A stretch of DNA of 64,000 bases from Armatimonadota bacterium (GTDB lineage: Bacteria; Armatimonadota; Fimbriimonadia; Fimbriimonadales; Fimbriimonadaceae), in contig JAFDWX010000003.1 of NCBI GenBank assembly GCA_018268255.1, positions 333,740 through 397,739 on the forward strand, in the 5' to 3' direction. This document shows, piece after piece, positions 34,940 to 64,000 of the stretch; the first letter of the stretch is position 1; the number at the start of each line of letters is the position of its first letter. The position numbers and the translations under genes are program-made. The notes under the pieces were generated by a model. The model ran no database searches. It saw only the letters and a list, made by a program, of their open reading frames with translations, and was not told the DNA's origin.

Positions 34940-37831
34940 ATGATTGATCGATTTTCGCGTGCGGCTTTAGTTGTTCTGGCAGCTTCGCCAGGGTTCGCAT
35001 TTGCACAGGCAGGGTCTGATGGGTGGTTTTACGAATGCATCGATCCTGAGAACACCACTCCCTATTCCAGCCCATCGGGTGGAATCACCATCGGCAACGA
35101 CCTGATGGGGATCCAGATGGGTGTTGTGGGAACCGTGACCTACGGGGGCCAAAACGGCCCTTGCTACAGCGGTGCAAGAACCCTGAATTTTGAGGGTCGT
35201 TTCTGCCTTTTTGTCCCGGGGGCCGGCTCGCAGCAATCAGACTTCGATGACGGCTTGGCATTAACCGTGGGCGCTCCTGCGGATGCAGTGGGCGACTATA
35301 CCTACGCCAAGATCATTCGCTATACAGATCCAACTGCAAGCGCAACCGATAAGATGAAGTTGTTTGGCGAGGGCGGTCTCCAGGCTGCTTTCTCCGGTGC
35401 CAGCAAACGTTACTTCATTGCTGTCTACCGAGATGGCAACTCTGAAACTTCTCTTGAAACCCGAGTCATCGGCGATGCCGCACGATTGCGGTGGCGCATG
35501 AAGAATATTTCCACGACTGAGGTGACCTACCTCGGTCTTCGCTATGGTTCATACGTTGGTATGCGAACCCGCACTCCGGATGTATTGGATGCCTCCGGTG
35601 CGAATCAGGCGAACTCGTCTTTGGGAACCGCAACCGGAATTCCGAAGCCACGCGTCGTCCAGTCCGACGGCACTGTTTGGGTCGGATTCAATACGACGCC
35701 GACAACGAAGCCTCTGCGGTTGGAACGAGCATTTTCCAGCTTGCGATCTGATTTTCCGGCTTACGTGAACTTTATGTTCGGCCAACAGGATGCGTATGGA
35801 CTTCGAGTAGATAACGCACCGACCGACACGACTCCCGACGCAACCAGAGCAGATCACTTTATCGTCTGTAACCAATTCCCGAATCTCTGGGACAACGCGA
35901 TGACGGTTCGTGTATGGGAAGATCAGGCAGCACAGGGAGATCCAGTTCTGGATGCCAACGCTGACCCGATTCTGGAGCAAGGCGATCAGTATCTCGACGA
36001 GACGAGCTACATCCAGACCTTTGCTCCGCAAGCTGTTGCACCCGGCTCTTACCGCGATATCATCATGTATTTGCGGTCGCCTTGGTCCGTCGGCGACTAT
36101 CGTGATCCGTATTCGGTAGTCCTCGATGCACCGCGGCTGGTGGCATCGGGAGATTCTGCAGATCTGAACGGTTTAACCCCGAATCCGATGCAAATCTACT
36201 GCCATGTGGACAACCAATATGCTACGGCTGACAAGGAAATCCCGCTCACAGACGTGCGCTGCACGATCTTTCTGCCGGAGGGCCTGAGCCTGGCCAATGG
36301 AGAGTCGCAGGTTAAGAAGATCGCATCAATTCCAGCCAACGAATTGCGCTCAATCTCCTGGGATGTCGAAGCTGATGGTGATACGACTGGAAAGCTTCAG
36401 TACTCAGTAAGAGTCGAGCCGAACGTTGGCCCAACTCGGACGCTCACAGGAAATATCTTGGTTTCAGCCACACCGAGGGTTCGTCTCGCGGAAGGTCCAA
36501 ACCTCATCACATTCCCGTGGCAGTTCGGAGATTCCAATCTGGATACCATTCTAGGCCTCCAGGCGGGCATCGATTACGCTGCCTATCAATGGAATCCGAC
36601 CCTTGGTGAATATGTGCCTGTAACTTCGGTCACGCGGGGTCAGGGAGTCTGGATTGTTCCAAAGCAAGACCAAGGTCTCGTGGACCTCACTGGCTCAAGT
36701 GCACCGAGCGATGCCGCAAATGGCGGTGGCACGGTGGACCTCAAGCGAGGCTGGAATATGATTGGTAACCCTTACCAATATCCAATTCCCATCAGCCAAC
36801 TCTTAGCGATCGTTGCCGACGATGCTGCAGACACGCTTTCGTGGACTCAGTTGGTTGATGCAGGATACGTGAACTCGAGCTTGGCGTATTGGCAACGCAA
36901 TGCGGAAGATCCGAACTCTGGAAGCTATGTCTTCACAGAAGGTTCTTCGGACTACATCCAGCCAAACCGAGGGTACTGGGTCTACAACAACACCTATAAC
37001 TCGATCAAGATTATCTTCCCGGCTGTCTTTGCTGAGACTCTTCCTGGTTCGACCCGAGCCACCAAGGCAAGCGGTTCTGCCTGGAAACAGACGGATAAGC
37101 AATGGAGACTTCAACTCGTGGCACGCGATGCCAAGGGCATGGACTCCAGCAACTTTGTTGGTGTCGCTCAAGGTGAAAAGCTCGCTAGCCGCCTGCGTTT
37201 GAACGAGCCTCCGACGTCTCCATCTGGTGGAGTTCAGCTCGCGATCGAGGAATCGGTCGATGGTGCTCCGACACGACTGGCCCAAGATCTTGCTCCCAAG
37301 CTTAGTCGCAAAGAGTGGAAGGTCGTGGTGACGGCTCAGGAAGCAGGTGAAGTGACGGTAACTTGGCCAAACGTAGCATCGATCCCGCGCAACGTGAGAA
37401 TGCAGCTCGTGGACAAGGCGACAAACCTCACGAGAGACATCCGCTTCGCGAGTGGATACACGTTCAAGATGGACCAAGCAGGAACACGTGAGTTCACGCT
37501 CCAAATGGAGCCAGGCGCTCCCGTCCGTGCGGTCATCGGTGATGTTGTGGTTACCAAGCCGAGTCGAGATGCTCGTGCACCATTCACGATCAACTACTCG
37601 CTATCGGCTCCGGCAACAACGACCATCAGAATCCTCGCAGGATCTGGCAAGGAGATCTACACGGTCTCCCGAGGACGCGCGGATCGTGTCGGTGAGAATT
37701 CGGCCACATGGGCTATGAGAGACAATGCTAATCGAGCAGTGGCTCCTGGTTCCTATCAGGTCGAGATCATCGCCGAAACGGATGGCGGAGATCGCGTGCG
37801 AAAGATCATTCCGATCAACGTCGTACGATAA
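34940..37831 (+). CDS. Large secreted protein with C-terminal FlgD-Ig-like domain
   Basis: ATG 34940 starts a signal peptide (MIDRFSRAALVVLAASPGFAFA, then Q). The 963-residue mature chain is beta-rich. Residues ~540-700 contain repeated GWNMIGNPY-, GVWIVPKQD- and GYWVYNN-type stretches as in surface proteins with 'T9SS-like' or cell-wall Ig modules. The last ~85 residues (FTINYSLSAPATTTIRILAG to GSYQVEIIAETDGGDRV) match the FlgD Ig-like fold seen at the C-termini of many exported proteins. No enzyme motif is visible. Likely a surface or extracellular structural protein co-expressed with its neighbours. Confidence 0.7.
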   Translation: MIDRFSRAALVVLAASPGFAFAQAGSDGWFYECIDPENTTPYSSPSGGITIGNDLMGIQMGVVGTVTYGGQNGPCYSGARTLNFEGRFCLFVPGAGSQQSDFDDGLALTVGAPADAVGDYTYAKIIRYTDPTASATDKMKLFGEGGLQAAFSGASKRYFIAVYRDGNSETSLETRVIGDAARLRWRMKNISTTEVTYLGLRYGSYVGMRTRTPDVLDASGANQANSSLGTATGIPKPRVVQSDGTVWVGFNTTPTTKPLRLERAFSSLRSDFPAYVNFMFGQQDAYGLRVDNAPTDTTPDATRADHFIVCNQFPNLWDNAMTVRVWEDQAAQGDPVLDANADPILEQGDQYLDETSYIQTFAPQAVAPGSYRDIIMYLRSPWSVGDYRDPYSVVLDAPRLVASGDSADLNGLTPNPMQIYCHVDNQYATADKEIPLTDVRCTIFLPEGLSLANGESQVKKIASIPANELRSISWDVEADGDTTGKLQYSVRVEPNVGPTRTLTGNILVSATPRVRLAEGPNLITFPWQFGDSNLDTILGLQAGIDYAAYQWNPTLGEYVPVTSVTRGQGVWIVPKQDQGLVDLTGSSAPSDAANGGGTVDLKRGWNMIGNPYQYPIPISQLLAIVADDAADTLSWTQLVDAGYVNSSLAYWQRNAEDPNSGSYVFTEGSSDYIQPNRGYWVYNNTYNSIKIIFPAVFAETLPGSTRATKASGSAWKQTDKQWRLQLVARDAKGMDSSNFVGVAQGEKLASRLRLNEPPTSPSGGVQLAIEESVDGAPTRLAQDLAPKLSRKEWKVVVTAQEAGEVTVTWPNVASIPRNVRMQLVDKATNLTRDIRFASGYTFKMDQAGTREFTLQMEPGAPVRAVIGDVVVTKPSRDARAPFTINYSLSAPATTTIRILAGSGKEIYTVSRGRADRVGENSATWAMRDNANRAVAPGSYQVEIIAETDGGDRVRKIIPINVVR

Positions 37832-53963: not shown

Positions 53964-55175
53964 CTAGGAATTTTCCGAAAGTCGCCTTTTAATCAGCAAA
54001 ATCTCCGGTTCTTGAGTGGCCAAAGTCAAGGCAACTTTGTAATCCGCACGTGCCTTCTCCGGCTCGTTGGATCTACTGAAGAGTTCTGCTCTGGCTGCGT
54101 ATGCCCGATGGTAGGAGACCAGCATTCCTGTCTTGAGGAGTTGATCGATTTGGACGATCCCGGCTCCTGGTCCGTCTCGCATGGCGATGGCTACGGCGCG
54201 GTTCAGCAACGCCACGGGCGATGGCTCATATTGGACCAAAAGATCGTAGAGTCCGATGATTTCGGCCCAGTCCGTTTCCTCATAGGAGGGTGCTTCAGCA
54301 TGAACCGTGGCAATAGCGGCCTGGATGGAGTAGGGACCGAAGTTGCCGGAACGGAGAGCCGCAGCAACGAGCGTGCTTGCCTCTGCGATCGCTGTTCGAT
54401 CCCACTGAGATCGATCTTGATCTGCCAAAAGGATGATCTCTCCGGCGGCGGAGGTACGAGTGCGGCTCCGGGCTTGATGCACGAGCATCAGGGCAAGCAA
54501 CCCGAGAACGTCCGGATCGGGCTGCAGGTCGACAACTTGGCGACCCAAGTGCACGGCCAGGGTCATCAGTTCGGGGCGGATGACTTGTTTGCCTGAAGTT
54601 GGAGCATAGCCTTCGTTAAAAACCAGGTAGATCGTCTTCAGTACAGATTCCAACCGAGTGGGCAGTTCATCTCGGCTGGGAATCTCGAACGGGATAGAAG
54701 CTTCGCGGATCTTGCTCTTGGCTCGGACGATGCGTTGCGCAATGGTGGGCGTCGGGGTCAGATAGGCTGAGGCGATTTCCTCGGTGGTGAGCTCGCAGAC
54801 TTCCCGTAAGGTGAGTGCGACTTGGGAATCTGGGGAAATGGCCGGGTGGCAGCAGGTAAAAATCAGCCGTAGGATCTCGTCCCCGACTTCCTCGACTTCT
54901 GGCTCGAACTCCTCCTCGTGCTCCGAGAGCGGAATCAGCCGTTGCCTTCTTTTGAGAGTGGAAATGCCTTGGAATCGAGCCGTTTGAAAGAGCCAAGCCG
55001 CAGGGTTTTCGGGAACTCCCTGGATGGGCCACTGGACAGCTGCTGCACGCGTGGCATCCTGCAGTGCATCCTCGGCGATGTCAAAGTCGCCTAAGGCATG
55101 CACCAGCCGCGCAAAAATCCGTCTGGATTCATTGCGATAGGTGCGTTCCAGAACGCCTCTCGGCTCAGGTTTCAC
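53964..55175 (-). CDS. ECF42-type RNA polymerase sigma factor with C-terminal TPR-like extension
   Basis: A 403-residue protein. Sigma region 2 (RIFARLVHALGDFDIAEDALQDATRAA, then PAAWLFQTARFQGISTLKRR) and region 4 (LTLREVCELTTEEIASAYLTPTPTIAQRIVRAKSKIRE) are followed by a ~220-residue helical extension with TPR-like stretches (ALLNRAVAIAMRDGPGAGIVQIDQLL, ARAELFSRSNEPEKARADYKVALTLA). This layout plus a DGPF gene nearby defines the ECF42 group; the extension replaces an anti-sigma factor. Its start overlaps the GNAT gene by 11 nt. Confidence 0.92.
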   Translation of the reverse strand: MKPEPRGVLERTYRNESRRIFARLVHALGDFDIAEDALQDATRAAAVQWPIQGVPENPAAWLFQTARFQGISTLKRRQRLIPLSEHEEEFEPEVEEVGDEILRLIFTCCHPAISPDSQVALTLREVCELTTEEIASAYLTPTPTIAQRIVRAKSKIREASIPFEIPSRDELPTRLESVLKTIYLVFNEGYAPTSGKQVIRPELMTLAVHLGRQVVDLQPDPDVLGLLALMLVHQARSRTRTSAAGEIILLADQDRSQWDRTAIAEASTLVAAALRSGNFGPYSIQAAIATVHAEAPSYEETDWAEIIGLYDLLVQYEPSPVALLNRAVAIAMRDGPGAGIVQIDQLLKTGMLVSYHRAYAARAELFSRSNEPEKARADYKVALTLATQEPEILLIKRRLSENS

Positions 55176-55665
55176 CGGCGCCAGTGTACTGCGAGGTCCG
55201 CCGCTCCCACCTCAAGACAAGACCGTCTTCGGGCTCGACCACCTCACCGATGAGCTCAAAACCGTTTTTGCGGAGCACCGCTTGCGAGGCATGGCCGTCT
55301 GGCAGAGTGTGAGCCCGCACTGTTGTGACACCGTGGGCGAAGGCGTGCTCCACCATACGTTGACACAGAGCGGTTGCCGCCCCTTGGCCCCAACAGGATT
55401 CGTGGATGCCGTACCCAATCTCGACCCATCGGTCCCTCGGCGCATCCTTGTAGCCCCCGCTACCCACTACTTCACTGCCGAGAATGACCCAGAATCCGAG
55501 CCAATCGGGAAATGGCAGCATCTGCTGTGCCCACGGCCTCAGGAAGTCCTCGGGAAGCAAAGCGTCGGGTCTGCCCGTCAATCCGGCGTACTCGATCGCA
55601 GCCTCGCGGGACTCGCAATGCAGCCGCAGAACCTCAGGCGAAATCTGGAGAAATGTGAAGGTCAC
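55165..55665 (-). CDS. GNAT-family N-acetyltransferase
   Basis: The open frame reaches 55746, but that stretch crosses the tRNA fragment, so GTG 55665 (VTFTFLQISPEVLRLHCESREA) is the better start, giving 166 residues. GNAT motifs: VILGSEVVGSGGYKD, WVEIGYGIHESCWGQGAATALCQRMVEHAF (acetyl-CoA loop), and HASQAVLRKNGFELIGEV. It resembles RimJ/RimL-type transferases. It is first in the run into the sigma factor gene and is the last host gene before the putative island junction. Confidence 0.85.
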   Translation of the reverse strand: MTFTFLQISPEVLRLHCESREAAIEYAGLTGRPDALLPEDFLRPWAQQMLPFPDWLGFWVILGSEVVGSGGYKDAPRDRWVEIGYGIHESCWGQGAATALCQRMVEHAFAHGVTTVRAHTLPDGHASQAVLRKNGFELIGEVVEPEDGLVLRWERRTSQYTGAGET

Positions 55666-55681
55666 AGCTACTAAATATGAA

Positions 55682-55731
55682 TGGTGGGCGGTATAGGATT
55701 TGAACCTACGACCCCTTCGGTGTGAACGAAG
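55682..55731 (-). pseudogene. 3' fragment of tRNA-Val(CAC): probable attachment-site scar
   Basis: On the minus strand this gives an anticodon arm CTTCG-TTCACAC-CGAAG (anticodon CAC), a 5-nt variable loop, a T-arm GTAGG-TTCAAAT-CCTAT, the acceptor 3' strand ACCGCCC, discriminator A and encoded CCA (plus-strand 55682-55684). The matching 5' half (GGGCGGT, D-arm) is absent; the upstream sequence is unrelated. An intact tRNA 3' half without its 5' half is typical of the distal end left by integration into a tRNA gene. Confidence 0.8.
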
Positions 55732-55780
55732 TTTCAGAACGTTCAACGGGCCATTTTACGTACCTAAGTCGTCTCAGGCT

Positions 55781-55821
55781 GTCTCTCAAAATCTCCCCTA
55801 TTTGAGAGACTATTGAGAGAC
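55781..55821. repeat. Inverted plus direct repeats next to the tRNA scar
   Basis: GTCTCTCAAA (55781-55790) and TTTGAGAGAC (55801-55810) form a perfect 10-bp inverted repeat with a 10-nt spacer. A further TTGAGAGAC copy follows at 55813-55821. The arrangement resembles arm-type or excisionase sites of a tyrosine recombinase (inference). Confidence 0.55.
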
Positions 55822-56251: not shown

Positions 56252-58867
56252 GTGGGGGTAGTTCGACCGTATTTTGATTTGTGGGCGAAGGCCGAGGTGA
56301 GCGGTTGCAGATGGCATTCACTCCCGTTTCATTTGCTGGACGTTGGAGCGGTTGCGGCAAGTTTGCTTGAGGTTCTGCCTAGGCCGTCTCTCAACTCAGT
56401 CGTGGAAGCATTCAAGTCTCCGGATGATGCGAGACGGGCCCTTGTATTCCTCGCGGCCGCTCATGATATAGGTAAGGCCAATCCCTATTTTCAGCGGAAA
56501 CACGATGGAAGGCGAAGCGGAATGCCGGCAAAATGGGGATTACGCGCTTTCAACGATCAGAGAGACCCACTTCATGGCCACGCCACCATGGCATTTCTCT
56601 TTCGGTGGCTCGAAAAGCGCTGGTCATGGCCGCAACCCCTCCGATATCGAACCAGTAACGCGGTGGGAGGTCATCATGGAGTGTTCTTTTGTAACACAGA
56701 GTTTCCCATCGCTGGCGGGAGCAAGATATGGGACGAGACCGCATCAGTGTTGCTGGATGATCTGTGGAATACGGTTTCGGAGATTAGCAAACCGCCAGAG
56801 CCGCCATTGGATCCGGATAAATTCATTTCATGGCTAGCGGGTTTTGTTTCAGTGGCAGACTGGCTGGGCTCGCACGATTTAATGAATCTCTGGCGCAGCG
56901 AGCCAGAGGACCTCTCCTTGTACTGGCGCGATGCGCTGCTCAGAGCGAGTGAAGCACTTCCGAAACTTCAGTGGACCCCAACCAAGGAGGGTGTCCGGAT
57001 GGAAGTGCACGAACTCCTGCCCCAAGGTTGCCAACCTAATGCCCTGCAAAGTGTGGCCCACGATATCGCGAGAGTAGATTTCACTTTGACCATTATCGAG
57101 GCTCCGACCGGTGAGGGGAAAACTGAAGCTGCCTTTACCATGGCGGAAAGTATTCGCCACAAGGGTGGGGGTATCTACTTTGCGCTCCCCACAATGGCAA
57201 CGGCGAACGGCTTGTTTACTCGAGTTGAAAATTACCTACAGAAGGCGGTTGGCGATGAGGACGCTGTCGTTCGATTGCTCCACAGTGATGCATGGCTTTA
57301 TCGGCAGGAACGTCGTAGGCTTGAGTCCGAATCTGATGAGGCGCTAGATCCGGGAATGGAGGACTGGTTCGATGGTTCCAAAAGGGGGTTGCTCGCACCA
57401 TATGGCGTGGGCACAATTGACCAGATTCTGATGGGATCGCTTGTCGTTCGGCACGGCTTTGTCAGGCTCTTTGCCCTAGCAGGAAAGGTGGTCGTCATCG
57501 ACGAGGTCCACGCCTACGATGCCTACATGTCTGAGCTTCTCGGCATCCTCCTTTCATGGCTGAGGATACTGAATTGTAAGGTCATTCTCCTCTCTGCAAC
57601 CCTGCCGAGCGAAATGCGGCTCTCGCTTCTCGCCTCGTGGGGATGCGCCACTGAACCAATAGGTAGCTACCCGTCCATAACCTGGGTTGATCGCAATGGG
57701 GATTCTGAAACGCGTGAGTTTGTGGCTGCCCCAGGCAAACCGCTCAAGATGGAACTTATCGAACAGGACATGGATTCCATAGCGCAACTTGGGGCTAGGA
57801 AGATTCTGTCGTTAGTAGAGGAATCGGGGGGCTGTGGAGCGCTGGTGCTTAACACCGTTCGAGACGCTCAGGAAGCCTATCTCTGGCTCAAGACGAACGC
57901 GCCTTGTGTGGACTTGACGCTGTTTCATGCTCGTTACCGCAAGAGCGATCGAAATCAAATCGAGAAAGAAGTTCTTCGCAAGTTTGGGAAAGGTCGCGAA
58001 GCGACACTTCCGAGCATTCTCGTGGCCACCCAAGTTGTGGAACAAAGTTTGGATTTGGATTTCGACCACATGGTTTCAGACCTAGCGCCGATTGACCTGC
58101 TGATCCAAAGGGCAGGCAGATTGCATCGACATTCTAGGTCAGCACAAGGAATGTATTTGGGGCCGCCCCACCCTGATGAGCGTGGACCCAAAACACTCCA
58201 CGTACTTGGCTCACCAAGGGCAACCGGGAGTGGGAATACGAGCAAATACAACGTGTACGTTGCGTCAGTCCTCTGTCGAACAGAACAGTATATTGCCGAT
58301 CACTCGACGTTTATGGAACCAAAATCTTGCGCCGACGCAGTGGAGGCGGTCTACTCGAAAGGGCTGATTCATGAACTCTCGGAGAAAACAACTGAGGCAA
58401 TTCGTCGAGAAGTTGAGAAAACAGCCCAGCATCGCCAAAGGGCGGAACAGGTCGCAATACCACGTGCAGGCTCGGGCACTTGCTTAACGCGGTCCAGACT
58501 CATATTGGACGAGAGAGTTTTGGATGAGAATTCAGTGTTGACCCCACGAACTAGGCTCAACGAGCTTCCCTCAACCACGGTTGTGGTTGTCCTTTCCAAT
58601 GAAGCTCGGGATTTTGCTGCCCATCAACCAATTGACAAAGCCAAGTTGGCCCACGCGACAGTCCAGCTTTCTGGACCACATCCACTCATCAACGCAGTTC
58701 GGCAATTACCTCCACCAGATTGTTGCTGCAATACCTGGCGAATGCGAAGGAAGTTCGAACACCTCCACGCATTGGTTCTGGACGAATGCAACGCCGTTCG
58801 CGTTGGTCGTTTTCAACTGACATACCAAACTGATCTCGGGTTACAATGGGAAAAAGTAAATGAGTAG
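56252..58867 (+). CDS. cas3: CRISPR-associated helicase/nuclease Cas3 (type I-E)
   Basis: An 871-residue single-chain Cas3. The N-terminal HD nuclease has WHSLPFHLLDVGAVA and AAAHDIGKANPYFQRKHDG (HD at ~70). The SF2 helicase has EAPTGEGKTEAAF (~283), DEVHAYD (~416), LLSATLP (~446) and VVEQSLDLDFDHMV with LIQRAGRLHRHSR (~619). It is recruited by Cascade to nick and degrade target DNA processively. Translation starts at GTG 56252, almost at the predicted transcript 5' end. Its stop overlaps cas8e by 8 nt. Confidence 0.95.
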   Translation: MGVVRPYFDLWAKAEVSGCRWHSLPFHLLDVGAVAASLLEVLPRPSLNSVVEAFKSPDDARRALVFLAAAHDIGKANPYFQRKHDGRRSGMPAKWGLRAFNDQRDPLHGHATMAFLFRWLEKRWSWPQPLRYRTSNAVGGHHGVFFCNTEFPIAGGSKIWDETASVLLDDLWNTVSEISKPPEPPLDPDKFISWLAGFVSVADWLGSHDLMNLWRSEPEDLSLYWRDALLRASEALPKLQWTPTKEGVRMEVHELLPQGCQPNALQSVAHDIARVDFTLTIIEAPTGEGKTEAAFTMAESIRHKGGGIYFALPTMATANGLFTRVENYLQKAVGDEDAVVRLLHSDAWLYRQERRRLESESDEALDPGMEDWFDGSKRGLLAPYGVGTIDQILMGSLVVRHGFVRLFALAGKVVVIDEVHAYDAYMSELLGILLSWLRILNCKVILLSATLPSEMRLSLLASWGCATEPIGSYPSITWVDRNGDSETREFVAAPGKPLKMELIEQDMDSIAQLGARKILSLVEESGGCGALVLNTVRDAQEAYLWLKTNAPCVDLTLFHARYRKSDRNQIEKEVLRKFGKGREATLPSILVATQVVEQSLDLDFDHMVSDLAPIDLLIQRAGRLHRHSRSAQGMYLGPPHPDERGPKTLHVLGSPRATGSGNTSKYNVYVASVLCRTEQYIADHSTFMEPKSCADAVEAVYSKGLIHELSEKTTEAIRREVEKTAQHRQRAEQVAIPRAGSGTCLTRSRLILDERVLDENSVLTPRTRLNELPSTTVVVVLSNEARDFAAHQPIDKAKLAHATVQLSGPHPLINAVRQLPPPDCCCNTWRMRRKFEHLHALVLDECNAVRVGRFQLTYQTDLGLQWEKVNE

Positions 58868-60347
58868 TTTTTGCCTCAATACTGAGCCTTGGATTCCGGT
58901 CGAGCTCGTGAATGGGACCCATAAACTCGTTTCATTGAGAGAGTCCTTTCAGGGCGCAAAGAGCATCCGGAAGACTGTCGGGAATCCGCTGGAGGTTGCG
59001 GTTCTCCTTCGGCTTTTGCTTGCAATTGTTCAACGTGTCCACACTCCGAAAAGTGATGATGAGCTATGTGCGATCGACTTGGACCACCTCATGGCCAACT
59101 GCCTTGGTTACGTCGACGAGCATCAGGACAAATTCGATCTCTACGACAAGAGTCGACCGTTTCTCCAGCATCCTAGTTTGGAAACCACCAACGGAACAGC
59201 GGCAAAGGTCATCTACGAAATGAACACTGGGAATAACCCGGTGTTCCTGGACCACTGCATCGACGCTCGACCAGTTGTGCTCTCGTCAGCACAAGCGGCT
59301 CGAGGGCTCCTCGTTCTTCATGCTTACGGAGGATCTGGGACAGGGAGTCTTAATCCCTTGAACCAAGGGAAGAAGGACACAATGTATGCTGGACCGCTTT
59401 GCGCCCGTATGCCGGTCACGTTGGATGCGGGCCGGCTGGATTGGACGCTGTTGTTGAACCTCTGGAAGGACCGCGATTCGGGCATCCCGGCATGGGAGCA
59501 AGGCCCACCAAAGCCAGCCAGTCTCACGCCTTTCACTGGAGTTTGCGACCTCTATACCCGTCAAACCCGCCTTGTAAAGCTCGATCCAAACGAAGACGGG
59601 AGTTTATGCGTTGGGGCCTCGGTGTTTATGGGCGAGGGGCTCCCCCCCGAAACCGATGGCTCAAGAGATCCCATGATGGCCCAATACTACGCTAGCGACA
59701 AAAAGTGGAAGGTCACAAGGTTAGCCACAGACAGGGCTGTTTGGCGCAGTGCTCATGCGTTGCTTGCAAATCGCGATGGCCAAAATAAGGATCGATATCA
59801 ACGGATCAGAGCCATCGACAATGCTCTTTTCATGCACCAGTCGGCTGGCATCACTCCTCCGTTCGGCGTCGCCCTCCGAATTCTAGGAGTGTCCGCAAAT
59901 GCCCAAGGTCCAGTAACAGAAATGTGGCGAGAAGAAGTCCTTCCATTCAGCTTCTCCGTTATCGAAAATTCCACCGCATTTTGGGAGCTCGAAACCCGAA
60001 TTCAAGCGGCGGAGGATCAGGCAAACAAGCTTCGATATCAACTAAGAAAATTTGCGCGCAGCTACCTCGAAGAAACGGTCGCCGAGCCAAAACCGGAGGA
60101 TGTCGAGGCTCTCGTGAACAAAATTGCGCCTGGACTCCATACCTTCTGGCATCAAGTCGGTAGTCGAGGGGAGAGTCTCGCAATGGAGCCCTGCGATGCC
60201 GGAGAATGGCAATCTCTGCTAATAGAATCGTCGAGAAACAACTTTCGAGAAGCCGTCAATGCTCTTCCCGCAAGTGCCGCACGCTATCGAGCTGAATTCG
60301 CGACCAAATTTCAGCCTCACCCCAAAAAGGAAAAAGCCAAACCATGA
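58860..60347 (+). CDS. cas8e: Cascade large subunit Cas8e (Cse1/CasA)
   Basis: A 495-residue protein beginning FCLNTEPWIPVELVNGTHKLVSLRESF, the canonical Cse1 N-terminus. It continues VGNPLEVAVLLRLLLAIVQRV, the YDKSRPFLQHPSLE segment and LVLHAYGGSGTGSLNPLNQGKKDTMYAGP. The C-terminal ~150 residues are the helical bundle. It recognises the PAM and contacts Cas3. It overlaps cas3 by 8 nt and cas11 by 4 nt. Confidence 0.93.
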   Translation: MSSFCLNTEPWIPVELVNGTHKLVSLRESFQGAKSIRKTVGNPLEVAVLLRLLLAIVQRVHTPKSDDELCAIDLDHLMANCLGYVDEHQDKFDLYDKSRPFLQHPSLETTNGTAAKVIYEMNTGNNPVFLDHCIDARPVVLSSAQAARGLLVLHAYGGSGTGSLNPLNQGKKDTMYAGPLCARMPVTLDAGRLDWTLLLNLWKDRDSGIPAWEQGPPKPASLTPFTGVCDLYTRQTRLVKLDPNEDGSLCVGASVFMGEGLPPETDGSRDPMMAQYYASDKKWKVTRLATDRAVWRSAHALLANRDGQNKDRYQRIRAIDNALFMHQSAGITPPFGVALRILGVSANAQGPVTEMWREEVLPFSFSVIENSTAFWELETRIQAAEDQANKLRYQLRKFARSYLEETVAEPKPEDVEALVNKIAPGLHTFWHQVGSRGESLAMEPCDAGEWQSLLIESSRNNFREAVNALPASAARYRAEFATKFQPHPKKEKAKP

Positions 60348-60913
60348 GCACCTTCAAATCTCCGCTCGTTCAAACCATTCAAGCCAGGATCGAAAAAAGA
60401 GACCGCCAGGCTTTAGCGGATCTACGTTCGGGCCTTGGGAAAGACCTGGGTGAGTCACCCCGCATGTTGCCCTATCTTGCTCGATTCCTTTCTGGTAAAT
60501 CGCCATACGAAATAAGGGCAATCCACCTCACCGCATCACTGATGGCTTTCCACGCAGGGCACACCGAAGGGAATATCAATCTTGCGTCTGGACTCCGAAT
60601 GATTCAGGATCGCAGAGGTACCAGCGCTCCTGATGGCCCGCAACGTACAAGTGAGGAAGCTCGGCTGATGGCAATAATGGAGGCCGATCCTGAGGACCTT
60701 CCGCACTACCTCGAGGCCGCCGTCAAATTGTGCGAAAGCGCTGGCGTGGACCTAAATTGGCACCTCTTTCAATCCGACGCAATGGCTCTCTTGGATCCCA
60801 ACAAGAGATTCCGGGAGCACGTGCTTAGGCGATGGGCCAGCGCTTTCTGGGCCCCGAAATCTGGGGACTCAGAAGCCACCGAAGAATCGACAATTTCTCA
60901 AGAGGACGAATGA
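60344..60913 (+). CDS. cse2: Cascade small subunit Cas11 (Cse2/CasB)
   Basis: A 189-residue, mostly helical protein with Cse2 features: RDRQALADLRSGLGKDLGESPRMLPYLARFL, IRAIHLTASLMAFHAGH, NLASGLRMI and the C-terminal RFREHVLRRWASAFW. It is slightly long because of an acidic C-tail (EATEESTISQEDE). It stabilises crRNA and the non-target strand in Cascade. Confidence 0.92.
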   Translation: MSTFKSPLVQTIQARIEKRDRQALADLRSGLGKDLGESPRMLPYLARFLSGKSPYEIRAIHLTASLMAFHAGHTEGNINLASGLRMIQDRRGTSAPDGPQRTSEEARLMAIMEADPEDLPHYLEAAVKLCESAGVDLNWHLFQSDAMALLDPNKRFREHVLRRWASAFWAPKSGDSEATEESTISQEDE

Positions 60914-61971
60914 TGAATACCAAAACCGTAGAACTCCACCTCATCCAGAGCTTTCCGCCATCCTGCATCAACCGCGATGGCAACAACTCGCCCAAAGACT
61001 GCACCTTCGGCAATGTAAGAAGGGCAAGAATTTCAAGCCAGTGTCTCAAGAGGGCGATCCGCCAAGCGGACAGCTTTGCAGATATTGTCGGAGAAGAAAT
61101 TGCCTCTCGGAGCAAGCTCATGCGCGACAAGAAGCTGGTCCCCTACCTTCTGGAAAAGGGACTGAACCAGGCAGATGCCGAACAAGCTGCTGATGCCTTT
61201 AGAGTAGAACTGGCCAAAGACGACAAGAAGAAGGACCAGACCTCGGTTGGCCTGTACTTTGGTGATAGCGAGTTGTTTGCGCTTCTGGACGCCCATCGCA
61301 CAGGCGACAAAAACTGGCGAAAAGCGCCTCGAGTATCTGCAGACGTGGCCCTGTTCGGCCGGATGCTGGCAGAAGCTCCTGAGATGGGAGTTGACGCGGC
61401 CGCGCAGGTGGCCCATGCCATATCCACCCATAAGCTGGCCCAAAATATGGACTACTGGACCGCAGCCGACGACCTGCGACACTCTAAGGAAGGGGAAGAT
61501 ACCGGCGCTTCGATGCTGGGCACTGCCGAGTTTAACGCGAGCGTTTTCTATCGGTACGCACTGGTATCGGTTTCAATCCTCCAATACAATCTTAGAGATC
61601 AAGACTTGGTGGGCAGAACAATTGAGGCCTTTATGGTGGCTAGTTCCGAAGCGATGCCGACTGGCAAGATTACAGGTCACGCTCACGGTAACCCTCCGCT
61701 ATTCGCTTTAGCGGTCGTTCGCCGCAAAGGTATGCCTCTGAATCTGTGCAACGCATTCCTCAAGCCGGCTGAACCGACTCGCGACAAGGGCCTGGGCCAG
61801 GTGTCTAGTGAGTTGCTCGTTCAACATCTTCAAGAGGCAAGAAAGATGCTGGCTGTGGATGAGGCACAGTACTTTGCCAGTCAAGCCACGCCGATGGATT
61901 CCATGCCGTATGGGTTGGAATACGTTGGAGGCTATCGCGACTTGGTAAGTCGAGTCATGGCGGCCTTATGA
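60913..61971 (+). CDS. cas7e: Cascade backbone subunit Cas7e (Cse4/CasC)
   Basis: ATG 60913 has AGAGGA 6 nt upstream and overlaps the cse2 stop as TGATG; ATG 60910 is also possible. 352 residues with the Cse4 signature: VELHLIQSFPPSCINRDGNNSPKDCTFGNVRRARISSQCLKRAIR, DVALFGRMLAEAPEMGVDAAAQVAHAISTH, and ASMLGTAEFNASVFYRYALVSV. It forms the hexameric crRNA-binding filament. Confidence 0.95.
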   Translation: MNTKTVELHLIQSFPPSCINRDGNNSPKDCTFGNVRRARISSQCLKRAIRQADSFADIVGEEIASRSKLMRDKKLVPYLLEKGLNQADAEQAADAFRVELAKDDKKKDQTSVGLYFGDSELFALLDAHRTGDKNWRKAPRVSADVALFGRMLAEAPEMGVDAAAQVAHAISTHKLAQNMDYWTAADDLRHSKEGEDTGASMLGTAEFNASVFYRYALVSVSILQYNLRDQDLVGRTIEAFMVASSEAMPTGKITGHAHGNPPLFALAVVRRKGMPLNLCNAFLKPAEPTRDKGLGQVSSELLVQHLQEARKMLAVDEAQYFASQATPMDSMPYGLEYVGGYRDLVSRVMAAL

Positions 61972-62645
61972 GTGGGCAGGCTGTGTTGTTGCTCAGGCTC
62001 CAATCCCCTCTGCAAAGTTGGGGCTATCGATCGAGGTTTCGGGATAGAGATACAGGTACCGAACCAACCAAAAGCGGTGTCGTAGGTTTGCTGTGCTGCG
62101 CGCTGGGGCGAGATCGATCGGAGCCTCTCGATGATCTGGCTGGGCTTAAAATGGATGTTTGCATCCTCTCTGAGGGCCAACCGCTCGCAGAATTTCAAAC
62201 CGCTGGCGGAGGGAGCTTTCGTGGCAGCGAGAAGTACTTTGCACCCACCAGTTCGGGGGCGACAAGCAAAAATCCCGTGGTAATGACCAAGCACTATTTG
62301 GCAGATGCAGAGTTTTTGGTCGCTCTTACAGGTCCAGAGAACCTCATCACGGAACTCAAAACGGCCCTTCACGATCCAGTTTGGCCGCTGGCACTTGGGC
62401 GCAAATCCTGCCCACCCGCCATGCCACTCGTGATCGAAACTCAAACAGACGATGCGGAATCGGCATTCTGCGAGTACCTAGGACCACGGTCTGCAGAAGC
62501 AACTTGGTGCGTCTTCGAACTGGAAATGGGCGATTTCCAGGGCGAATCTCGCCAAGATGTCCCGATTGCTTGGCCCGATACATTCCATCGCGAATACGGC
62601 ATTCGGTACGTAAGCCGCCGGCGGTTGTCGGGGGTCTCAGCATGA
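61968..62645 (+). CDS. cas5e: Cascade subunit Cas5e (CasD)
   Basis: A 225-residue RAMP protein: VLLLRLQSPLQSWGYRSRFRDRDTGTEPTKSGVVGLLCCALGRDR, then VMTKHYLADAEFLVALTG and the C-terminal DTFHREYGIRYVSRRRLS. It caps the 5' handle of the crRNA. Both ends overlap neighbours by 4 nt (ATGA). Confidence 0.94.
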   Translation: MSGQAVLLLRLQSPLQSWGYRSRFRDRDTGTEPTKSGVVGLLCCALGRDRSEPLDDLAGLKMDVCILSEGQPLAEFQTAGGGSFRGSEKYFAPTSSGATSKNPVVMTKHYLADAEFLVALTGPENLITELKTALHDPVWPLALGRKSCPPAMPLVIETQTDDAESAFCEYLGPRSAEATWCVFELEMGDFQGESRQDVPIAWPDTFHREYGIRYVSRRRLSGVSA

Positions 62646-63292
62646 TCCTCTCTCGAATCGAATTTGATCCATACAACCCCAAGGTCTACGGATTGATTGC
62701 CGATCCGTATCGTATCCACCAGCTCCTTACAGAGCTTTGGGGAGCAACGCGAACTTCCCAAAATATCCTTTTCCGCATTGAGCCCATTCGGCCAAAAGAA
62801 GGAAGTCTGGCCCCAATCGGCCCCACCATCCTTATCCAAAGCGACTCTGCTCCAGATTGGTCGCGGTGGGTGCTCAGGGAAATGTGCGCACAAAGTCCAG
62901 AATCAAAGGAAGTCCAGATTGAAGTTCAGGCGGGCCAACTGCTTGAGTTTAGGCTCCGCTGCCGACCGTGCAAAAAACAGGCGTCTCCGGGCAAAAAGAA
63001 CAGCCAGTTCAAGTTCCTTCGATCTGAAGGTGAGCAGGTGGAGTGGCTCATGCGCCAAGCGGAGAGTGCGGGATTTCGCCTGGTTTCGGTGGAACTCACC
63101 AGGGAGGACTGGGAGGATACCAAGCCTGGCAACCCGCGACCAGATGACAAAAGGGAACGGCAACTCGGAGCAGTTCGGTTCGATGGCCAATTGCAGGTTA
63201 CCGACCCGGAACAGTTTTTGGCAGCTGTTCGCAAGGGCATTGGCCCCCAAAAGGCATACGGATTCGGGCTCGTTAGTTTAAGGAAGCTCTGA
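62642..63292 (+). CDS. cas6e: CRISPR RNA endonuclease Cas6e (Cse3/CasE)
   Basis: ATG 62642 overlaps the cas5e stop; the open frame upstream to 62381 is a shadow of cas5e. 216 residues: LSRIEFDPYNPKVYGLIADPYRIHQLLTELWG places a histidine at position 26, matching the catalytic His26 of Cas6e. The C-terminal glycine-rich KGIGPQKAYGFGLVSLR matches the RAMP G-loop. It processes pre-crRNA and stays on the 3' hairpin. Confidence 0.94.
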   Translation: MILSRIEFDPYNPKVYGLIADPYRIHQLLTELWGATRTSQNILFRIEPIRPKEGSLAPIGPTILIQSDSAPDWSRWVLREMCAQSPESKEVQIEVQAGQLLEFRLRCRPCKKQASPGKKNSQFKFLRSEGEQVEWLMRQAESAGFRLVSVELTREDWEDTKPGNPRPDDKRERQLGAVRFDGQLQVTDPEQFLAAVRKGIGPQKAYGFGLVSLRKL

Positions 63293-63555
63293 TGAATTCC
63301 GGCTATCCTCCATTTCACTGGTTTGAAGTCGAAGCGGTTCTAAAACAACCCAGTTCGTTCACCAAGCCACTGATGCCAAAGCCGAAAAGGAAGCCAAGGG
63401 ATTGTCCCTGGTGTGGTCAACCGACCCGCTGGGTTTGGTGGAGCAGTTCACCTAAATCCTGGGAATCACTCTGCGGGCGCGCTGGCTGGATACGCGTCTG
63501 CGAGCCCTGCCGATACTCCTCCGACATCTCGGAGGAGGGATTCATCATGAGCTAA
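63292..63555 (+). CDS. Small Cys4 zinc-ribbon protein inserted between cas6e and cas1
   Basis: An 87-residue protein whose ATG overlaps the cas6e stop (TGATG) and whose stop overlaps the cas1 start (TAATG). It is therefore translationally coupled inside the operon. The core is CPWCGQPTRWVWW, then SPKSWESLCGRAGW, then VCEPCRY: two CxxC knuckles plus a central Cys, fitting a zinc ribbon. The SPxSWxxLCGRxGW stretch resembles stand-alone small zinc-ribbon proteins I recall from planctomycetes and other bacteria. A basic linker (KPKRKPRD) precedes it. It is not a standard type I-E gene. Possible nucleic-acid binding in adaptation or regulation (inference). Confidence 0.8.
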   Translation: MNSGYPPFHWFEVEAVLKQPSSFTKPLMPKPKRKPRDCPWCGQPTRWVWWSSSPKSWESLCGRAGWIRVCEPCRYSSDISEEGFIMS

Positions 63556-64000
63556 TGCCACAAGACCTTCAGCTCCTCCCTAAGTTCGTAGATCGGCTAA
63601 CGTACCTGTATGCCGAACACGCCACCGTGGAGCGCAACCAGAACAGCATCGCGCTCTACCAGCAAACGGAAGAGGGAGAGCTGGCTGAAACACTCGTTCC
63701 GGTTTGCGATATAGCCCTTCTGATGCTTGGCCCTGGGACCAAATTGAGCCACGCTGCTGTCGATGTCCTTGCGCGCAACAATACGTTGGTTGCCTGGACC
63801 GGCGAAGAAGGGGTTCGGATGTATGCTTTTGGTACCGGTGGAACTCACTCCAGTGCGCGGTTGCTCAGGCAGGCAGAAATTGCCCTCAATCCGGTAAAGC
63901 GCCTGGAGATGGTGCGCAAGCTTTATGGGATGCGCTTCCCAGAAGCCCTTGATCCCGAGGTGACTATTGAGCAACTCCGTGGTAAAGAGGGCTACCGGGT
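63555..64000 (+). CDS. cas1: CRISPR adaptation integrase Cas1e, N-terminal part (cut by window end)
   Basis: It runs off the window. From ATG 63555 (TAATG overlap) it reads MPQDLQLLPKFVDRLTYLYA, then HATVERNQNSIALYQQTEEGE, VPVCDIALLMLGPGTKLSHAAVDVLARNNTLVAWTGEEGVRMYAFG, and RLLRQAEIALNPVKRLEMVRKLYGMRFPE. This is typical of type I-E Cas1, including the beta domain and the start of the helical domain. About 148 residues are visible; the catalytic Glu/His/Asp lie beyond the window. cas2 and the array are expected next. Confidence 0.93.
   Translation, partial: MPQDLQLLPKFVDRLTYLYAEHATVERNQNSIALYQQTEEGELAETLVPVCDIALLMLGPGTKLSHAAVDVLARNNTLVAWTGEEGVRMYAFGTGGTHSSARLLRQAEIALNPVKRLEMVRKLYGMRFPEALDPEVTIEQLRGKEGYR

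Follow-up and report, generated by a model that had tools for sequence, protein, structure and literature searches.

It is very probable that a mobilizable-type element of at least 71 kb has split the host tRNA-Val(CAC) gene without rebuilding it, with a type I-E CRISPR-Cas system as its cargo and a divergent tRNA-Val(CAC) of its own as the most likely substitute. The window, which is the whole 64-kb stretch of DNA analysed, is part of contig C3 of a genome assembly of nine contigs and holds one end of the element (attR), and the other end (attL) is located on contig C8. In the proposed mechanism, a tyrosine integrase would insert the element into the anticodon loop of the host gene. The attachment site of the element (attP) and that gene have only about 16 bp in common, and the tRNA would therefore be cut into a 5' half (attL, on C8) and a 3' half (attR, in the window) and never be rebuilt. 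The element-borne tRNA would then take over from the lost host tRNA, and the CRISPR-Cas operon and its array would ride as cargo beside attR.

The 3' half and its immediate surroundings comprise the following features of the window:

55165..55668, minus strand: host GNAT acetyltransferase gene, left flank of attR (Pfam Acetyltransf_3)
55682..55732, minus strand: attR, remnant of the original host tRNA-Val(CAC) comprising its 3' portion, anticodon arm through CCA (51 nt, with 100% identity to the gene of G019, which is intact, and 90-98% to those of many relatives)
55717..55732, minus strand: 16-bp common core ACTTCGTTCACACCGA in the anticodon stem-loop (sequence comparison; second copy in attL, C8:37763-37778, minus strand)
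55781 (plus), 55802 (minus) and 55813 (minus), spanning 55781..55821, no strand for the cluster as a whole: GTCTCTCAA cluster, probable arm-type integrase sites (9-mer also found three times at attL)

Read from 55732 to 55682 on the minus strand, the fragment ACTTCGTTCACACCGAAGGGGTCGTAGGTTCAAATCCTATACCGCCCACCA contains an anticodon arm with CAC, the variable loop, the T-arm, the 3' strand of the acceptor and CCA, which are the final 51 nt of a tRNA-Val(CAC), and no 5' half stands ahead of it. Such a fragment without a 5' half had been described in the initial annotation, and only its extent required a slight correction, to 51 nt at 55682-55732. Chance resemblance to a tRNA can be excluded, because over its 51 nt the fragment is 90-100% identical to tRNA-Val(CAC) genes that are intact in relatives, reaching 100% in G019, which belongs to a related genus. 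ARAGORN made no tRNA call over the 64-kb window, and the Rfam tRNA model gave the fragment only 29.4 bits, with a broken D-arm, compared with 66.8 bits for the intact tRNA-Val(CAC) gene on C8. A decayed copy of this C8 gene was also considered as the origin of the fragment (90% identity over 48 nt) and was rejected, as paired changes in the stems of the anticodon and T arms set the two apart.

The missing half was found on C8, where nucleotides 1-40 of the canonical gene are present at 37763-37802 on the minus strand with 100% identity, followed by unrelated DNA. The 5' half lies upstream of a tyrosine integrase gene (Pfam Phage_integrase, 1.2e-14), which starts 126 bp from it and reads away from it. 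When the two halves were joined at the 16-bp core, an intact tRNA-Val(CAC) was obtained that is accepted by ARAGORN and identical at 75/75 positions to the G019 gene; neither attL alone nor attR alone yields a tRNA with this program. Earlier proposals were right in taking the fragment for one boundary of an integrated element, with host DNA (the GNAT gene) to its left and the element to its right, and in placing the integrase outside the window.

The initial annotation had also expected the opposite end of the element to hold an intact tRNA, as in the textbook arrangement in which an element brings a tRNA 3' half, rebuilds the tRNA at its far end and leaves the fragment as the displaced 3' end. 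Most relatives of the integrase do so, with an intact tRNA approximately 60-130 bp upstream of the integrase gene. At that position here, however, only nucleotides 1-40 of the tRNA were found before unrelated DNA begins, ARAGORN detects no tRNA at attL, and the intact CAC tRNA is divergent, 2.2 kb deeper in the element and in the opposite orientation. Barring a misassembly of C8 at this point, the attL sequence contradicts the textbook reading, which is thus very unlikely. A search for an intact tRNA-Val(CAC) with a matching 3' end gave none, a result that tells against the regeneration step of the earlier proposal and leaves its integration step standing. The host tRNA remains split because the far end holds only the 5' half and, as read from attL, attP carries no tRNA 3' half.

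This integrase family is encoded in 31 of the 113 genomes of the order (own genome counted). The relatives, which share approximately 50-57% identity and occur in many of these genomes, usually neighbour an intact tRNA (Arg, Val, Pro, Leu or others). A textbook rebuilt site is seen in G102, where 42 kb separate the intact tRNA-Arg that forms one end from a 3' fragment of 45 nt, whereas the gene studied here is not regenerated. Several other arrangements were observed among the relatives. In G083, a distant integrase lies by a tRNA-Val(UAC) 5' fragment (nt 1-38), with an intact copy of that tRNA 37 kb off on the same strand (C4:15879 and 52919; L260; L177 7780-7817); here the element may contribute the 5' half of the tRNA instead of its 3' half. 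Three related integrases lie in tandem in G086:C10 (L160, L161). An intact tRNA-Val(GAC) precedes the first and a 3' fragment of 45 nt precedes each of the other two, and judging from this layout it is a tandem array of elements. In G014:C9 (L105), several tRNA-Val 3' fragments within 4 kb next to an intact tRNA-Val(GAC) suggest stacked integrations.

Both ends of the element also share a short repeat. The inverted repeat with an extra direct copy that had been noticed beside the fragment is real and corresponds to the GTCTCTCAA cluster, whose last copy in the window ends at 55821; the same 9-mer occurs in three copies beside the 5' half on C8, with no others in C8:1-62000. It is also present in several related elements between the tRNA and the integrase, often as a tandem pair, and at least two exact copies were found upstream of 13 of the 38 integrase genes compared (own integrase counted). 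Near related integrases, 65 occurrences were counted in 561 kb, compared with approximately four expected, and exact copies are missing from many integrase relatives. Their position and conservation suggest that these repeats are probably arm-type integrase binding sites. The shared sequences also bear on the idea that the tRNA was broken by a chromosomal rearrangement independent of integration, with the halves left as passive debris, which would suit their location on different contigs and the poor conservation of the gene neighbours of the tRNA in relatives. However, a 16-bp core on both sides is not produced by simple breakage, both halves are flanked by the same repeat cluster, and one adjoins an integrase whose relatives neighbour tRNAs, so that such a rearrangement is hardly credible.

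The time at which the tRNA was lost can also be read in another way. The element might have arrived with a regenerating attP, the tRNA at attL being broken only once the element possessed a tRNA of its own. A possible T-arm relic at attL, GTAGcTTCAAATtCT, which matches at 13/15 letters approximately 31 nt past the core (a level reached by about 0.2% of random genomic 100-mers), would fit such a late break. However, the relic is short, was chosen post hoc and is displaced by approximately 24 nt around a repeat copy, and decay of attP prior to the present integration accounts for it equally well. A late break is therefore considered unlikely, though with a real chance of being correct.

With regard to the extent of the element, attR faces the right end of C3, 33.7 kb off, and attL faces the left end of C8, 37.8 kb off. 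Across this break, the gene order and strands are ArdC (minus), Mrr (minus), HTH (minus), serine recombinase (plus), T4CP (plus), Replic_Relax (plus), integrase (minus) and tRNA (minus), and the same order is present in an unbroken element of G031 (C19). From the two arms, with their order matched in G031, a size of at least 71 kb follows. Since the element spans an assembly gap, the join was deduced from orientation, repeats and gene order, which indicate that the right end of C3 would adjoin the left end of C8; the 6.5-kb contig C9, or further sequence, could lie between them. As a gap filler, C9 showed no match to the elements of relatives. ArdC was tried as a bridge over the gap and failed, the reading frame on the C8 side being unlike the ArdC N-termini of relatives, and the adjacency thus rests on gene order. 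The G+C content is 51-53% in the element versus 55% in the flanking host DNA. In the comparison with related genomes that had been suggested for an empty tRNA site, none of the relatives showed an empty site between matching flanks, and the neighbours of tRNA-Val(CAC) are not conserved among them.

A single intact tRNA-Val(CAC) was detected in the genome. It is located at C8:35498-35572, 2.2 kb inward of attL and in the opposite orientation, adjoining phage-gene relics. That it belongs to the element is deduced from where attL lies and from the gene content of C8. It is divergent, with a D-arm common to only seven genomes of the order (own genome counted). A decayed tRNA-like copy with this rare D-arm was also observed in G061 (C192:2666-2790; L234), directly upstream of an intact tRNA-Val(CAC). 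No match was found when viral contigs were searched with the spare tRNA and with the integrase. Replacement of the split host gene by the spare is the most economical reading and most likely the correct one, and the spare would then be expressed and needed. It could instead be a passenger, with the split as described, if tRNA-Val(UAC), which is present in the genome, reads GUG codons; the spare may be non-essential for this reason, and the adjoining phage-gene relics would allow a chance arrival. On the other hand, a canonical tRNA-Val(CAC) query, which also picks up sister Val tRNAs, was matched in 87 of 88 good genomes of the order, and the spare is a sound tRNA by its Rfam score (66.8 bits), with the same anticodon as the disrupted host gene. 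A neutral role of the spare is thus rather doubtful.

The CRISPR-Cas operon begins directly inside attR:

56252..58867, plus strand: cas3 (HD nuclease/helicase), the cargo gene closest to attR (Pfam Cas3_HD, 8.7e-36)
58860..60347, plus strand: cse1/cas8e (Pfam CRISPR_Cse1, 1.6e-63)
60344..60913, plus strand: cse2/cas11 (Pfam CRISPR_Cse2)
60907..61971, plus strand: cas7 (Pfam Cas_CT1975, 1e-86)
61968..62645, plus strand: cas5 (Pfam Cas_Cas5d)
62633..63292, plus strand: cas6e (Pfam CRISPR_assoc)
63555..64000, plus strand: cas1, running beyond the window (Pfam Cas_Cas1)

Farther along C3 lie a probable cas2 (read from sequence only) and a CRISPR array of at least 42 exact 27-nt repeats. With this cas2, the type I-E set is complete (cas3, cse1, cse2, cas7, cas5, cas6, cas1, cas2 and array). 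Relatives of Cse1 were found in only 5 of 113 genomes (own genome counted) and are absent from both genomes of the same genus. Such scarcity is expected of cargo, and together with the position of the operon it upholds the earlier suggestion that the cas genes are carried by the element. No convincing protospacer was found when the spacers were compared with the sequences retrieved from relatives, and searches of named genomes with Cse1 and with the tRNA fragment gave no match.

Besides the integrase, the element encodes a replication-relaxation protein (PF13814), a TrwB/TraG-like coupling protein, an ArdC anti-restriction protein, serine recombinases, caspase-helicase and WD40 proteins, as well as glycosyltransferases and RHS-like repeats, the latter two named from the sequence alone. 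The caspase-domain protein fused to a DEAD-box helicase (G000:C8:8523-11528; L110/L106) is a possible defence gene. The gene content was scanned in a subset of open reading frames, and the gap between C3 and C8 remains. Among the genes scanned, the phage content is confined to tail relics (a tape-measure C-terminus and DUF2460), T4CP and Replic_Relax genes are present, and no mating-pair genes were found beside the coupling protein and the putative relaxation protein PF13814. Judged by the scanned genes, the element is not a temperate phage, which tRNA-dependent lysogeny in the strict sense would require. The element may still move. It is tentatively proposed, as a scenario that is possible but somewhat improbable, that a conjugation-type CRISPR island shifted within one integrase family from rebuilding to replacing the tRNA; the island's own tRNA would have relaxed selection on attP, the 3' half of attP would have degenerated into a relic, and losing part of the island would now cost the host a tRNA.

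The mechanism itself is already known, and the CRISPR-carrying, mobilizable-type element would add a new case to it. In the tRNA-dependent lysogeny of actinobacteriophages (Fionnbharth, LeBron, Gaia and others), cores of 8-17 bp are used, the tRNA is not rebuilt and the phage carries a tRNA of the same isotype (PMC10865867). The island resembles them in its tyrosine integrase, an attB in a host tRNA gene, a short core (16 bp here), a tRNA that is not rebuilt, an element tRNA of the disrupted isotype, putative arm-type sites and close integrase relatives that rebuild. Unlike these phages, it has only relics of a structural phage module and carries coupling-protein and relaxation-type genes and CRISPR-Cas, and its tRNA dependence is putative. 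Pasteurellaceae ICEs (ICEPmu1/ICEMh1 family) have been described as integrating into the anticodon loop, disrupting tRNA-Leu at both ends (13-bp repeat) and replacing it with an intact copy (PMC6028734), although their sites have also been read as one functional and one partial tRNA copy (PMC6861422). Under the former description, anticodon-loop insertion, disruption at both ends and an intact copy in the element are shared with the island; the ICEs differ in using tRNA-Leu rather than tRNA-Val, in a spare at the ICE end near parA and in resistance cargo. A CRISPR-Cas island in another bacterial lineage may thus join the known cases of tRNA-replacing integration, which has been demonstrated for actinobacteriophages and described for Pasteurellaceae ICEs. 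Since the integrase family also holds tRNA-rebuilding members, the question of which mode came first, left open by the phage study, becomes testable there. Ordinary tRNA-targeting genomic islands (Islander model) have a tyrosine integrase, a restored tRNA and a displaced 3' fragment at one end (PMC4383910). The CRISPR island likewise has the integrase, a displaced 3' fragment at one of its ends and an anticodon-region crossover, but it does not restore the host tRNA. Island finders that seek both a rebuilt tRNA and a 3' fragment would overlook such elements.
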